This document shows positions 9,357-53,313 of a stretch of 64,000 nt of DNA, piece after piece. Within the stretch, counting starts at the first letter, position 1; each line of letters opens with the position of its first letter. Source of the stretch: Syntrophomonas sp. DTU018 (GTDB lineage: Bacteria; Bacillota; Syntrophomonadia; Syntrophomonadales; Syntrophomonadaceae). The notes under the pieces were generated by a model, which did not search any database, was not told the DNA's origin, and was given only the letters and a program-made list of their open reading frames with translations. Location of the stretch: positions 1-64,000 of the forward strand of contig LFSR01000050.1 in assembly GCA_001513155.1 (NCBI GenBank), read 5' to 3'. A program made the position numbers and the translations under genes.

Positions 9357-9392
9357 CTTCCCACGGCAAAAAGCATGTAATCGGCATGGGCT

Positions 9393-9564
9393 GCGGCGTG
9401 TCAAAAAAGCTGATTAATAGTTTGGCGTTCGAGATTGCCACGGCACTTCGTGCCTCGCAATTGTCACCAGTAGAACAGGCCACGATAAACGAAAACTTAA
9501 GCCTGTCATCGCGAGGAGCGAAGCGACGTGGCGATCTCTTTACATGGCCTTTTTCGACAGTCTG
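9393..9564. repeat. Terminator-inserted miniature repeat element, copy 1
   Basis: About 172 bp bounded by GTGTCAAAAAA on the left (9398-9408) and CGACAGTCTG on the right, which form an imperfect terminal inverted repeat. The interior has the CGCGAGGAGCGAAGCGACG palindromic type. A degenerate hairpin half (9369-9392) lies to the left and an intact hairpin (9565-9596) to the right; 15 of 16 bases (GTAAxCGGCATGGGCT) match between them. It has no coding capacity. This copy is the most diverged of the three. Confidence 0.7.
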
Positions 9565-9596
9565 AAGCCCGTGCGGTAACCGGCATGGGCTTGTTT
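9565..9596 (+). terminator. Probable terminator of the peptide-binding protein gene, displaced by the repeat
   Basis: AAGCCCGTGC and GCATGGGCTT form a stem around GGTAACCG, followed by TTGTTT. It lies about 210 bases downstream of the gene because the repeat element separates it from the stop codon. From here to 9712 I see nothing else assignable. Confidence 0.5.
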
Positions 9597-19604: not shown

Positions 19605-19629
19605 AGCCTTTGCCTAAGCAGCAAAGGCT
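19605..19629. repeat. Left copy of a 25-bp terminator hairpin duplicated around a repeat element
   Basis: A 25-base palindromic sequence (stem AGCCTTTGC / GCAAAGGCT) is identical to 19782-19806. The two copies flank the 152-bp element exactly. Confidence 0.85.
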
Positions 19630-19781
19630 GAGAGTGTCAAAAAATTAGCTAAAAGAGATCGCCACGTCGCTACGCTCCTCGCGATGACACACCAAAAGGC
19701 CATCTTATGTGTCATTGCGAGCCCCGGAGGGGCGTGGCAATCTCGAACGTCTAACCGCTAAAAGACTTCTTTGACAGTCTG
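19630..19781. repeat. Terminator-inserted miniature repeat element, copy 2 (152 bp)
   Basis: Bounded by GAGAGTGTCAAA and TTTGACAGTCTG, imperfect inverted ends (10 of 12 positions pair). The interior contains the palindromic pair GCCACGTCGCTACGCTCC and GAGCCCCGGAGGGGCGTGGC with CGCGATGACA / GTCATTGCGA. It is the same length as, and close to 95% identical with, copy 3 at 23690. It has no ORF of note. Confidence 0.85.
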
Positions 19782-19812
19782 AGCCTTTGCCTAAGCAGCA
19801 AAGGCTTTTTGT
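19782..19812 (+). terminator. Right copy of the duplicated terminator hairpin, with T tract
   Basis: The 25-base hairpin is followed directly by TTTTTGT. Before insertion this would have been an ordinary intrinsic terminator. No intact upstream gene on this strand is apparent, so it may belong to the lost tRNA copy or a lost gene. Confidence 0.7.
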
Positions 19813-19837
19813 ATGTGCAGTTTAAAGTTACATTCAT

Positions 19838-19993
19838 CTAGTCAGTTTTCGATAATCCTAGAGCTATTAGTAAATCCTTCACCGCGTTTATAAATTGATT
19901 GGTTTTCTTTCCTTTTTGACCGTAATAGATAAAATGATGATGATACCCAGTTATTTGCCTTCGTTCGAGGCAAGTCCTCTTTCTATTTCCCAA
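19838..19993 (-). pseudogene. Possible remnant of an unidentified gene
   Basis: The minus strand reads open for 51 codons, ending in TAG. The residues look protein-like: RQITGYHHHFIYYGQKGKK, then NQFINAVKDLLIALGLSKTD at the C-terminus. There is no ribosome site; the only start in the open stretch is TTG 19993, and an in-frame stop lies just upstream. I do not recognise the family. It may be the last part of a gene lost from this accessory region. The remaining 120 bases up to the next gene are AT-rich with no clear feature. Confidence 0.3.
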
Positions 19994-20114
19994 ATGGATA
20001 ATTAATGCTTAATAGGTGTTATAATGCAGGTAATTGTGTGCAATTTTATCGATAAAAATTGTTCATTTGTATTAATCTTTGGGTAAATTTTGGGGGGGGC
20101 AGAGGAGTGAAAGT

Positions 20115-20318
20115 ATGGTTCTGACGAGCAAAAAGCTAGCAAGTATAGTGGTAATGGCGATATGTTTTTGGTGTGTTTTGTTGATTGTTCATTCACCTGA
20201 TGCGTTTGCCTCTATGTCTGATATTCGGGGCCATTGGGCGGAAGAGTCTATAGAGGATCTTATAGATCAAGGAATATTTAGCGGTTATCCTGATGGGAGG
20301 GAACTGAATTTACATTGA
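20115..20318 (+). pseudogene. Truncated S-layer-homology (SLH) protein
   Basis: A 67-residue ORF with a good start (GAGGAG 7 bases before ATG 20115), a clear signal peptide (residues 6-33, cleavage after DAFAS) and the first half of an SLH domain: MSDIRGHWAEESIEDLIDQG then GIFSGYPDG. The frame ends soon after GYPDG, where an intact SLH domain would continue with a Phe/Pro segment. Proteins with one partial SLH domain are not known to function, so this is probably the 5' remnant of a cell-surface protein gene. A terminator follows at 20420. Confidence 0.65.
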
Positions 20319-20419
20319 CGATTAAATTTGATCAGGGATGGGAAAGAAGCTTATTAATAACGATAGTAAACTGACAAGGAAGTGATAATTGGACAACACT
20401 AGCAACATAATCTCACTTT

Positions 20420-20442
20420 CGGGGGCTTTGCCCCCGTTTTTT
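20420..20442 (+). terminator. Terminator after the SLH remnant
   Basis: CGGGGGCTTTGCCCCCG followed by TTTTTTAT. Its stem is nearly the same as the hairpin duplicated around repeat copy 3 at 23.7 kb. Confidence 0.85.
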
Positions 20443-20582
20443 ATGCAGGTCCGCTGAATCTGCTCCATGGAAATAAAATGCTGAAGTTTTGGTTCGAGTA
20501 TAAATTGTCATATTTTAGAAGGAATTACATTATGACCAATCGAAATTAATACGGTCGAGAATACGGAGAGGGATGGGGGAAT

Positions 20583-22100
20583 ATGGGAAAAAGTGTAATA
20601 TTGATAGAGAATACCCAAAAGGGTCATTGGCTGATGCTTAAAGCCATAAGTATCATTACCATATTAGCTCTCTTGGCTACTTTGGGCATATTTTTCAGTG
20701 GAACTGGCTCAGAATCATTGGATATTCCCAAAATTGTTCGGGTGGCCTTGGTATCGTTTGTACTGCTTGCTCTTATTTACTTGTTGGCCAAGTATTTCGG
20801 AGATAAGGAGTTTTCCAAATACGTCATCATTGTTTTAGCGAGCCTGATAATGTACCAGTTCTGTTCAACTTTGACCGGTTCTCCGGAGTTGTTTGCCACC
20901 TTTTATTTAGCCATAGTTCTAAGCCTCGCATATGTGGACGTAATGCTGACCGTCTTTGCTTCCGCAACAGTCATAGTTTTACATACTTACTTGATCATTG
21001 CGCATCCCGAGATTATACCCGCCGGATCATTGGGGGCAACCTTAGGAGTCAGATATCTGTGCTTTATCTGGGTTGCCGTGGCGGGTGCAATAATAATCGG
21101 CATATTTAAGCGATTGTTGTACAAATCCATAGAAAGCGAAGAAAAAAGTAACGCCTTAAACGAAAACTTAAAAGCAGTAGCCCAGGTAATATCCAAAGAG
21201 GTTAATGCCCTAAGTGAAGCTGCCCTGAATGTGCGCCATTTGGCTGAAGAAACCGGCCAGGCTGCAGTTCAAGTCAGCGCCAGTATAGAAGATATGGCCA
21301 AAGGAGCCACAGAGGAAGCCCTGCATGCGGGCAAGACTGTGGAAGTGGTGAAAGAGATGTCGGTAGCTCTTGAGAGTGCCGGCAAACATGTTCTGCAGGT
21401 AAGCAATCAATCCAGTCAGTTCAATAAAATTGTAGAAGACGGCATGGAAGCCATGAAGCAGCAGACTGCATTTATGCAGGATAGTAGAACTGCTCAGCAA
21501 AGGGTAAGCGAAGCGGTACACGAACTAAATGACAAGTCAGCTGAGATAGTAAAAATTGTGGAATTAATAACGGGAATCGCTGACCAGACCAATTTGCTGG
21601 CACTGAATGCCGCCATAGAAGCAGCTCGTGCAGGAGACGCAGGGCGGGGGTTTGCGGTAGTAGCGGAGGAAGTCAGGAAACTGGCTGAGGGTTCAGCAGA
21701 AGCGGCTCAGAACATATCCCGCCTGATTGGCGAGATTCAAGATGGTATGCATGACACCGTAAAGCAAATCGAACTTTCCAACAAGATATCCGAACAGCAA
21801 TATGAAGCGGTGCAGAAGACCCAGGCGATGTTTGCCGAAGTAGAGCAGGGCGCTTCCCGTATTAATGATGCCATTCAAGAGATATCAGCTATTTTGCAGC
21901 AGATTCTGGCCTCCACCGAAGATGTGGTTGGAGAGGTGGAACAAATCTCAGCTTCTACCGAGGAGTCCGCAGCAGCGACCCAGCAAATCACCGCGCTGGT
22001 AAACCAGCAGCAGGAGGCTGTGGAAAGTGTCGCCAAAGCGATAGTCAATATCGAACAGTCCGCTGCCCAGCTAAAAGAGCTGGCCCAACAGTTTGGTTGA
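20583..22100 (+). CDS. Methyl-accepting chemotaxis protein with multi-pass membrane sensor
   Basis: A 505-residue chemoreceptor. Residues 20-185 form about six membrane helices with very short loops; there is no large periplasmic domain and no clear HAMP, so sensing is probably within or at the membrane. From about residue 195 a long coiled coil leads to the signalling tip, which carries the highly conserved [21 protein letters not shown] and [16 protein letters not shown] segments that bind CheA and CheW. GGGATGGGGG precedes the ATG. No che or flagellar genes are nearby, so it must act with a signalling system encoded elsewhere. Confidence 0.92.
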
Positions 22101-22270
22101 ACCTGGCAGACTTGATACCTTCACGCAATTTGTCGGATCTCTTGCTTGCAGGTATTTTTTTACCTGTTGCAGTGTGATAATATTATGGTTAATCAATATA
22201 ATATTAAATTTAAGTTATTTCTACGAGATTGTTTTCCTAAAGTCAAAGGACCATGGAAGCAATCCGATAG

Positions 22271-22304
22271 GGTATAACTAGAAATGGTTATGCCTCCCTT
22301 TTTG
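22271..22304 (+). terminator. Terminator after the chemoreceptor gene
   Basis: GGTATAAC (22271-22278) pairs with GTTATGCC, with one T-G pair and a loop of 8, followed by TCCCTTTTT. Between the chemoreceptor stop and here another small hairpin (CAGGTA / TACCTG near 22150-22167) has no T tail. Confidence 0.65.
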
Positions 22305-22317
22305 GAAAGTAGAAATA

Positions 22318-22379
22318 TCGCATTGGTTTATGCGAGATATGTTGGTTAATAACGGCTTTCCAGAGGGAAGCCGTTTTTT
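22318..22379 (+). promoter_or_regulatory. Leader with inverted repeat and intrinsic terminator before the TupA-like gene
   Basis: TCGCAT-TGGTTT-ATGCGA (22318-22335) is followed by a strong terminator (AACGGCTTTCC-AGA-GGGAAGCCGTT then TTTT, 22351-22379). It lies about 70 bases before the start codon at 22450. A full terminator this close to a start suggests attenuation of the downstream gene, or the end of a short independent transcript. I could not match the sequence to a known riboswitch class. Confidence 0.5.
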
Positions 22380-22449
22380 GTCGGGAAAAATTATAAAGGA
22401 GGGTGAGGGTCGAGAGTTTTGCAGCGAAAAAATATAAGGAGGGAATGGG

Positions 22450-23643
22450 ATGAAGAGGGTCTTGTTGGCAGTAATGTTATGTTTCTTGGTTTTATTCACA
22501 GGGAGTGCTTATGCTATGGAAACAGTGGAAGTATCTGTAGATGGCAAGTCTGTTAGTTTTTCCGATCAGGCAGCAATATTTGATAATAACAAAGATCAAG
22601 TTTTAATTCCTCTGAGGGCCATTTGTGAAGCATTGGGAGCCCAGGTAGAGTGGGATGCAGGTGCCCAAAAAGCTCTGGTCACCTTTATGAACAAAAAAGT
22701 GGAAATTACCATAAACAGTAACCGCGGAACTCTTAATGGAAAGGAGTTTGCATTATCAGCGGATGCTGTTATTATGAACGGACGAACCATGGTTCCCCTG
22801 GATTTTATGCAGAAAGCATTAGGCAGCAAAGCAACTTGGAATGCAGATACTAAATCAGTTACTATTCTGGACCGCAATGTAAAGATTAAAATGGCAAGTA
22901 CCATAGGGCCTATTGATGCAGGAATCGTTGGCACCCTGGCCGAGGAATTTGAAAAGAGAACAGGAATTAATGTGGAATTCCTGGGTGCTGGCACCGGCAA
23001 AGCACTGGAAATGGCCAAAAGCGGAGATTATGATCTGGTAATGGTACATGCCAAAGCACTGGAGGAAGCCTTTGTTGCTGAAGGTTATGGGACCAAAAGG
23101 ATACCTGTCATGTATAATGATTTTGTTTTAATGGGGCCGGCTAGTGATCCGGCAGGAATTAAAGGAATGACTTATGCTGAAGCCTTAAAGGCCATTATGG
23201 ACAAGGGAGCCAAGTTCATCAGCAGAGCTGACCAATCCGGTACTCATGTAAAAGAAATGGAATTATGGGAAGCTGCTGGTTTAGAGCCTAAAGGAGATTG
23301 GTATGTGGCCTGGGAAGGAGGCTCAAAAGGAAATAGTGCTACTTTGAAGTATACCAATGAACAACAGGCTTATACCTTAATTGACAGGGCCACCTACTTG
23401 GCACTGAAAAATGAAATCTCCATTGTTCCTTTGGTCGAAGGCGAAGAAGACATGCTCAACTTTATCTCTGTAATTCCAGTAAACCCGGATAAGTTCCCGC
23501 AGGTAAATGCTAAATTAGCTCAGGATTTCATTGATTTTATGACCTCTGATGAGGGACAGATTATTATTCGTGACTTCAAAAAAGACCTATATGGTGAACC
23601 GATGTTTTTCCCTAATGCCGAAGGGTGGCAGGGGAAGAATTAA
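22450..23643 (+). CDS. TupA-like tungstate-binding protein with N-terminal copper-amine-oxidase-N-like domain
   Basis: A 397-residue secreted protein. A signal peptide (residues 1-22, SAYA) is followed by a copper-amine-oxidase-N-type module (about 25-140; VLIPLRAICEALGAQVEW and TMVPLDFMQKALG). Residues 148-397 then match the tungstate-binding TupA type: TIGPIDAGIVGTLAEEFEKR, GAGTGKALEMAKSGDYDLVM, VHAKALEEAFVAEGYG, VMYNDFVLMGP and the later SRADQSGTH. TupA proteins normally serve TupBC ABC importers; no permease or ATPase is adjacent. The N-terminal module probably anchors or displays the binding domain at the cell wall. With a tungsten aldehyde oxidoreductase 11 kb upstream, a tungstate scavenging role is plausible. 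AAGGAGGG precedes the ATG. Confidence 0.85.
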   Translation: MKRVLLAVMLCFLVLFTGSAYAMETVEVSVDGKSVSFSDQAAIFDNNKDQVLIPLRAICEALGAQVEWDAGAQKALVTFMNKKVEITINSNRGTLNGKEFALSADAVIMNGRTMVPLDFMQKALGSKATWNADTKSVTILDRNVKIKMASTIGPIDAGIVGTLAEEFEKRTGINVEFLGAGTGKALEMAKSGDYDLVMVHAKALEEAFVAEGYGTKRIPVMYNDFVLMGPASDPAGIKGMTYAEALKAIMDKGAKFISRADQSGTHVKEMELWEAAGLEPKGDWYVAWEGGSKGNSATLKYTNEQQAYTLIDRATYLALKNEISIVPLVEGEEDMLNFISVIPVNPDKFPQVNAKLAQDFIDFMTSDEGQIIIRDFKKDLYGEPMFFPNAEGWQGKN

Positions 23644-23672
23644 CCGGTAGTTCAGATGATTTAATTTTAAGT

Positions 23673-23689
23673 AGGGGGCTTTGCCCCCA
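23673..23689. repeat. Left copy of a 17-bp terminator hairpin duplicated around a repeat element
   Basis: AGGGGGCTTTGCCCCCA, identical to 23842-23858. The two copies flank the 152-bp element exactly. Confidence 0.88.
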
Positions 23690-23841
23690 GAGAGTGTCAA
23701 AAAAGTTGCTAAAAGAGATCGCCACGTCGCTACGCTCCTCGCGATGACATACCAAAAGGCCATCTTATGAGTCATTGCGAGCCCCGGAGGGGCGTGGCAA
23801 TCTCGAACGTCGAACCACTAATAGACTTCTTTGACAGTCTG
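23690..23841. repeat. Terminator-inserted miniature repeat element, copy 3 (152 bp)
   Basis: The same ends (GAGAGTGTCAAA and TTTGACAGTCTG), the same length and about 95% the same bases as copy 2. It sits inside the terminator of the TupA-like gene, 46 bases after its stop codon. Confidence 0.88.
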
Positions 23842-23868
23842 AGGGGGCTTTGCCCCCATTTTTTTTGC
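23842..23868 (+). terminator. Right copy of the duplicated terminator, with T tract
   Basis: AGGGGGCTTTGCCCCCA followed by a run of eight or more T. It is probably the original terminator of the TupA-like gene. Confidence 0.85.
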
Positions 23869-52960: not shown

Positions 52961-53035
52961 ATATACCTATCTTCGCTTTGTGTCAACATATCGCCCCCCC
53001 GCTTTATTTCTCACAATTGTTACCTGCTGTGAAGA

Positions 53036-53211
53036 CCACGATGAATGAAAAGTCACCATTTGTGTCATCGCTGTGAAAGTGACTGCGCTGTGTCATCGTG
53101 AGCGCGTAGCGCGTGGCGATCTCAATCGGGGAGACAGATAGACGAATGAGATTGCCGCGCCCCTTTCAGGGGCTCGCAATGACACATAAGAGGACTTTTC
53201 ATTCATCGTGG
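53036..53211. repeat. Miniature inverted-repeat element with perfect 19-bp ends
   Basis: CCACGATGAATGAAAAGTC (53036-53054) is the exact reverse complement of 53193-53211. Between the ends is a palindromic core of the same GTGTCAT-CG-GAGC / GAGATTGCC type as the terminator-inserted elements. It has no coding capacity, and its terminal sequences differ from those of the 152-bp family. Confidence 0.8.
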
Positions 53212-53224
53212 CCTGTGTTTCAGG

Positions 53225-53313
53225 TGATAATTGCGAGCGCGCAGCAATCTCTATGTCAACTAACGGTTTGAGTCAACAGATCGCCACGTCGCTTCGTTCC
53301 TCGCGATGACACT
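53225..53313. repeat. Further copies of the GCGAGCxx / CGCGATGACA palindromic repeat
   Basis: TTGCGAGCGCGCAGCAATCTC and ATCGCCACGTCGCTTCGTTCC-type units lie next to the 176-bp element. Such short palindromes recur at 9.5, 19.7 and 23.7 kb. The remaining stretch to 53509 shows no gene. Confidence 0.65.

Follow-up and report, generated by a model that had tools for sequence, protein, structure and literature searches.

The 152-bp units repeated in the genome of Syntrophomonas sp. DTU018 are very probably MITEs whose mobility depends on a transposase of IS1182 type, which would attack an extruded terminator hairpin at its two 5' feet; the element inserts almost only at transcription-terminator hairpins. 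The window (the whole stretch of 64,000 nucleotides that was analysed) is part of contig 58 of the draft genome (2.56 Mb, 99.9% complete). Two elements of 152 bp each were located in it by direct reading, 95% identical, with the ends GAGAGTGTCAAA / TTTGACAGTCTG; the element contains no gene and codes for no protein. A third, older copy of another subfamily lies in reverse orientation. The features are as follows.

19605-19629 (no strand): left 25-bp target hairpin AGCCTTTGCCTAAGCAGCAAAGGCT (target-site duplication), same as 19782-19806; 9-bp stem, dG -12.7.
19630-19781 (+ strand): MITE copy 2, non-autonomous, subfamily A, 152 bp; ends GAGAGTGTCAAAAA / CAGACTGTCAAAGA; 47 similar places in the genome.
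19782-19806 (no strand): right 25-bp hairpin, same as the left copy; T-run retained, terminator-like on the + strand.
23673-23689 (no strand): left 17-bp target hairpin AGGGGGCTTTGCCCCCA, about 30 bp past the stop codon of the ORF 22450-23643.
23690-23841 (+ strand): MITE copy 3, subfamily A, 152 bp; 95% identity to copy 2.
23842-23858 (no strand): right 17-bp hairpin, same as the left copy, followed by TTTTTTTT.
9372-9392 (no strand): decayed left target hairpin of the oldest window copy, AGCATGTAATCGGCATGGGCT against the intact right hairpin.
9394-9564 (- strand): older related element, ends CAGACTGTCGAAAAAGG / CGGCGTGTCAAA; no element at the corresponding site of the relative G001.
9565-9592 (no strand): intact right hairpin AAGCCCGTGCGGTAACCGGCATGGGCTT of the oldest window copy; single counterpart at the G001 C43 empty site.

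Both direct repeats are exact: 25 bp around the element 19630-19781 (AGCCTTTGCCTAAGCAGCAAAGGCT; 19605-19629 and 19782-19806) and 17 bp around the element 23690-23841 (AGGGGGCTTTGCCCCCA; 23673-23689 and 23842-23858), and the sequences of the two hairpins are unrelated to each other. The preliminary description had reported two elements of 152 bp, about 95% identical, within perfect hairpin repeats of 25 and 17 bp, and had concluded from the unrelated hairpins that the target is duplicated and not the element; direct reading agrees, and hairpin sequences vary between copies genome-wide. It had placed the third copy at 9393-9564 between a degenerate and an intact hairpin; the states of the hairpins stand (left decayed, about 9372-9392; right intact, 9565-9592), the start is better placed at 9394, and the ends were read as CGGCGTGTCAAA / CAGACTGTCGAA. 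It had also inferred that the whole target is copied; the hairpin itself is found on both sides, the T-run is not duplicated. At 20420-20436 the window contains a terminator-like hairpin, CGGGGGCTTTGCCCCCG, with a T-run and without an element; its core is the same as that of the hairpin duplicated around 23690-23841.

The whole host genome (G000) was searched with the element by similarity (47 matching places) and scanned with the 12-base ends, which gave extra copies, including two more subfamilies with the ends CAGACTGTCGAAAAAGG / CAGAGTGTCAAAGAAGT and CAGACTGTCGAAAAAGG / CAGCGTGTCAATAAAG. From both searches, 52 copies with both ends were assembled for flank comparison. Identical sequence was found on both flanks in 47 of the 52 (15-35 bp, median 24), as the preliminary description had expected of the genomic copies; the top score of 400 mismatched flank pairs taken as control was 7, all accepted copies scored above 10, and chance duplication is therefore excluded as an explanation. 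By the automatic test five copies have no duplication, one of them being the decayed window copy. Hairpin folding (dG <= -4 kcal/mol) was found for 46 of the 47 duplicated sequences, a T-run 3' or an A-run 5' of the duplicated sequence in 42 of 47, and the hairpin sequences are unrelated between copies. Measured to the outermost pair of the stem, the two edges of the duplication lie at equal or nearly equal distances in 33 of the 43 cases tested; the hairpin thus sits at the centre of the duplication, whose length follows from the target rather than from a stagger of constant size. Since the T-run lies outside the duplication, normally only one of the two hairpins has a T-tail on a given strand.

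Longer versions of 310-374 bp, with extra internal sequence and the same ends, were also present (G000 C6:21550-21862, C37:23111-23420, C56:52711-53084, C13:70385-70698), and these too have a duplicated hairpin or palindrome around them. A complete hairpin at each end, but not the same one, was found at G000 C32:1775-1926 and C25:16676-16992 and at the IS loci L127, L128, L131 and L133, and further at L137, L140, L151, L164 and L177; such sites point to recombination between two copies, or to intramolecular transposition with loss of adjacent sequence, and in MAGs a misassembly could also produce them.

Empty sites were looked for in sister genomes. At the site of the oldest window copy, genome G001 has one hairpin (AAGCCCGTGC..CACGGGCTT) and no element. 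For 12 other sites the two flanks were joined with one hairpin and searched in three sister genomes; at nine of the 12 the alignment crossed one hairpin uninterrupted by an element (best 89% identity over 339 bp). At more distant empty sites (70-77% identity) the sequence of the hairpin is changed and the stem kept. A single hairpin without an element in relatives, which the preliminary description had named as a check, was accordingly found at the site of the third copy and at nine others; one hairpin is therefore ancestral and the second was made by the insertion. For window copies 2 and 3 the flanks were not collinear in the relatives searched, and no empty site was obtained.

As to class, the element is short, has no transposase gene, carries terminal inverted repeats (ends GAGAGTGTCAAA/CAGACTGTCAAA), and was collected in 52 copies, 47 with the duplication, as is characteristic of a MITE. 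Its ends GAGAGTGTCAAAAAA / CAGACTGTCAAAGAA match those of IS1182-family IS of about 1500 bp in other Clostridia (L107, L110, L113). The nearest parent match is L107 from an uncultured Clostridia genome (left CAGACTGTCAAAAAAGG, right CAGACTGTCAAAGAA; MITE: GAGAGTGTCAAAAAATT, CAGACTGTCAAAGAA), with 15/15 bases at the right and 13/15 at the left end, the match being only about 15 bp long; an A/G difference at position 13 between left and right ends is common to both. L107 encodes a full-length IS1182 transposase, which scores 424 bits with NF033551 (cut-off 270) and matches the Pfam families DDE_Tnp_1_6, DUF772 and DDE_Tnp_1. Above the same cut-off of NF033551, the proteins of L107, L110 and L045 score 413.9-474.1 bits, and PF13751, PF05598 and PF01609 are present in them.

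Named genomes were searched for IS1182-type transposases, and 80 loci were obtained. At least 36 (one in G050 counted) have the same complete hairpin, 19-35 bp long, on either side; such loci occur in Lachnospiraceae, Oscillospiraceae, Sporomusa, Acetobacterium, Selenomonadales, Bacilli and others. In Lachnospiraceae GAM79, five near-identical IS (L145-L149) have 24-31 bp duplications of five different hairpins; the hairpin duplication of an IS on an Enterococcus faecium plasmid (pl1) is at least 41 bp. In the tree of 87 transposases the hairpin-duplicating elements are dispersed through one large clade. Like the MITE, these IS (L107, the GAM79 copies, E. faecium pl1) have ends CAGACTGT.. and a whole hairpin on both sides; they differ in their length of about 1500-1700 bp and their transposase gene, against 152 bp and none. 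The IS1182-family IS of Clostridia, Negativicutes and Bacilli are likely the parent group of the MITE. The reading of the preliminary description, a non-autonomous element whose hairpin target is duplicated whole, was thus borne out by copies, empty sites and IS1182 relatives.

Two side observations were made among the loci. L048, L051, L052, L053 and L056 are IS1182 relatives with other ends (CAGACTGTGTGA, GAGACCACTGAAAAAG), lying inside a palindrome such as GGGGACGG|CCGTCCCC with an arm on each side and no duplication; of the five tree rows labelled 'split', only L048 and L052 were checked and the other three are given no weight. These relatives possibly represent a third insertion mode of the family. 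L152, on a Paludibacter MAG contig binned as Bacteroidota, is an IS1182 transposase of a mostly Bacillota clade; horizontal transfer or a binning error may account for its placement.

The shared ends place the MITE as a derivative in the IS1182 family; a partner transposase in the same genome was not found. The profile search of host genome G000 gave no PF13751 or NF033551 match (draft assembly, a collapsed repeat being possible), and exact-end scans of the same genome, in which unpaired ends were followed, gave only MITE-type copies and solo ends, no full-length IS. The IS1182 elements of the sister genomes were considered as partner and rejected, the termini of those whose ends were read being different from those of the MITE. 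No partner transposase was thus found in the four genomes of the genus (host and sisters); within the bacterial family of the host, G019 has the nearest one, a broken copy with one end left, CAGAGTGTCAAAGAACCC, which adjoins a hairpin. The full-length element with the same ends and a transposase, proposed earlier as a check, was found between duplicated hairpins in other Clostridia and not in the host genus. Since no partner was found in the genus, mobilisation in trans is what we infer rather than observe.

Between its IS1182-type ends the element is filled by a REP-like palindrome, GATCGCCACGTCGCTNCGCTCCTCGCGATGACA. The host genome contains 161 matches to it (<=3 mismatches), roughly threefold the MITE count, and many of these lie outside MITEs; related pieces are present in other genera of the bacterial family of the host. 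The REP-like filling is probably a separate repeat taken up by the MITE. An array of REP-like palindromes without MITE ends lies at 53010-53311 of the window.

A DDE transposase links an element to its target through the element's 3' ends. An IS1182-family DDE transposase, now apparently lost from the lineage or unassembled, would have acted in trans; it would bring the MITE ends to an intrinsic-terminator hairpin, most likely cruciform-extruded, and the two 3'-OH ends would be joined at the 5' feet of the hairpin, one per strand. Repair of the wide stagger would copy the whole hairpin, and for that reason the duplication would equal the hairpin in length (15-35 bp) and be symmetric about its axis. 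One hairpin retains the T-run, so the terminator, judged as such by its T-tail, would survive the insertion; this may limit damage to the host and would presumably benefit both host and element. The transposase itself may read the hairpin structure.

Three other explanations were weighed. Selection favours intergenic insertions in compact genomes, as is generally known, and the transposase might have no structural preference, insertions outside terminators having been purged and the harmless ones at terminators left; selection, however, cannot equate the length of a duplication with that of the hairpin (15-35 bp, mostly symmetric about the axis), nor does it agree with the 24-31 bp duplications of different hairpins around the five near-identical GAM79 IS (L145-L149), and this explanation was rejected as very improbable. 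Hairpins at both ends of nearly all copies would also be expected if the hairpin were part of the mobile unit, or if the element had fallen into an old double-hairpin terminator; the hairpin sequence varies by copy, however, and relatives have a single hairpin without an element, which leaves this explanation with next to no probability, and it was likewise rejected.

The third explanation concerns the driver, which might be an IS30-family (IS1630-like) or other inverted-repeat-duplicating transposase and not one of IS1182 type. As far as the account cited in PMC3317919 goes, IS1630 of M. fermentans targets and duplicates inverted repeats that vary in length (16-26 bp). In IS1182-family IS, the group searched for such ends, ends were found, however, that agree with those of the MITE both in their bases and in the way left and right differ, and a driver of IS30 type is held to be quite improbable. 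The IS1182-type transposase acting at the 5' feet is thus retained as the preferred reading.

In the IS1272 model of Wan et al. (PMC5678879), an extruded stem-loop attacked at its 3' feet is deleted, one attacked at its 5' feet is duplicated whole (pathway b), and attack in the loop duplicates the loop; the MITE events agree with the 5'-feet branch. Opinion is evenly balanced on whether a large IS1182 clade across Bacillota lets structure set its target duplication, cutting any terminator hairpin at the 5' feet so that the duplication always equals the hairpin, while IS1272 acts at the 3' feet and deletes. If this is true, the place at which the hairpin is held would alone decide whether one transposase fold duplicates it, deletes it or inserts into its loop. 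The clear contrast between duplicating and deleting inside one family could be traced to residues. Dozens of natural events are supplied here for the proposed pathway b, and the safe-haven strategy is put in numbers: insertion at transcription ends with a terminator left, about 50 copies, mostly beside terminator hairpins. If guided by the shape of a hairpin and not by its sequence, a transposase could also serve as a terminator-marking tool.

Hairpin-seeking and hairpin-copying transposons are each already known, and the idea is less new than the preliminary description supposed. A literature search, the direct-repeat lists of ISfinder lying outside its scope, gave no non-autonomous element of the hairpin-duplicating IS1182 type and no clade-wide record of whole-hairpin duplication in IS1182. 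REP-targeting IS (PMC1525189; ISPpu9, PMC8450116) share palindromic targets with the MITE, but use a conserved REP sequence, whereas the target hairpins of the MITE are unrelated in sequence. IS1630 of Mycoplasma fermentans (IS30 family; Calcutt et al. 1999, as cited in PMC3317919) is described there as duplicating inverted repeats; on that account it is autonomous, with another transposase family and other ends (27-bp inverted repeats), whereas the MITE is non-autonomous with IS1182-type ends. For IS1272 and its transposon TnSha1, of the IS1182 family, the targets are terminator hairpins of no preferred sequence (Furi et al. 2016, PMC4923244; Wan et al. 2017, PMC5678879), five of these targets being terminators by RNA-seq (Furi et al., PMC4923244). 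Insertion at terminator hairpins and an IS1182-family transposase are common to them and the MITE; IS1272, however, is autonomous and deletes or replaces the stem-loop with no target duplication, TnSha1 likewise deleting it, whereas 47 of 52 MITE copies have the complete stem-loop on either side.
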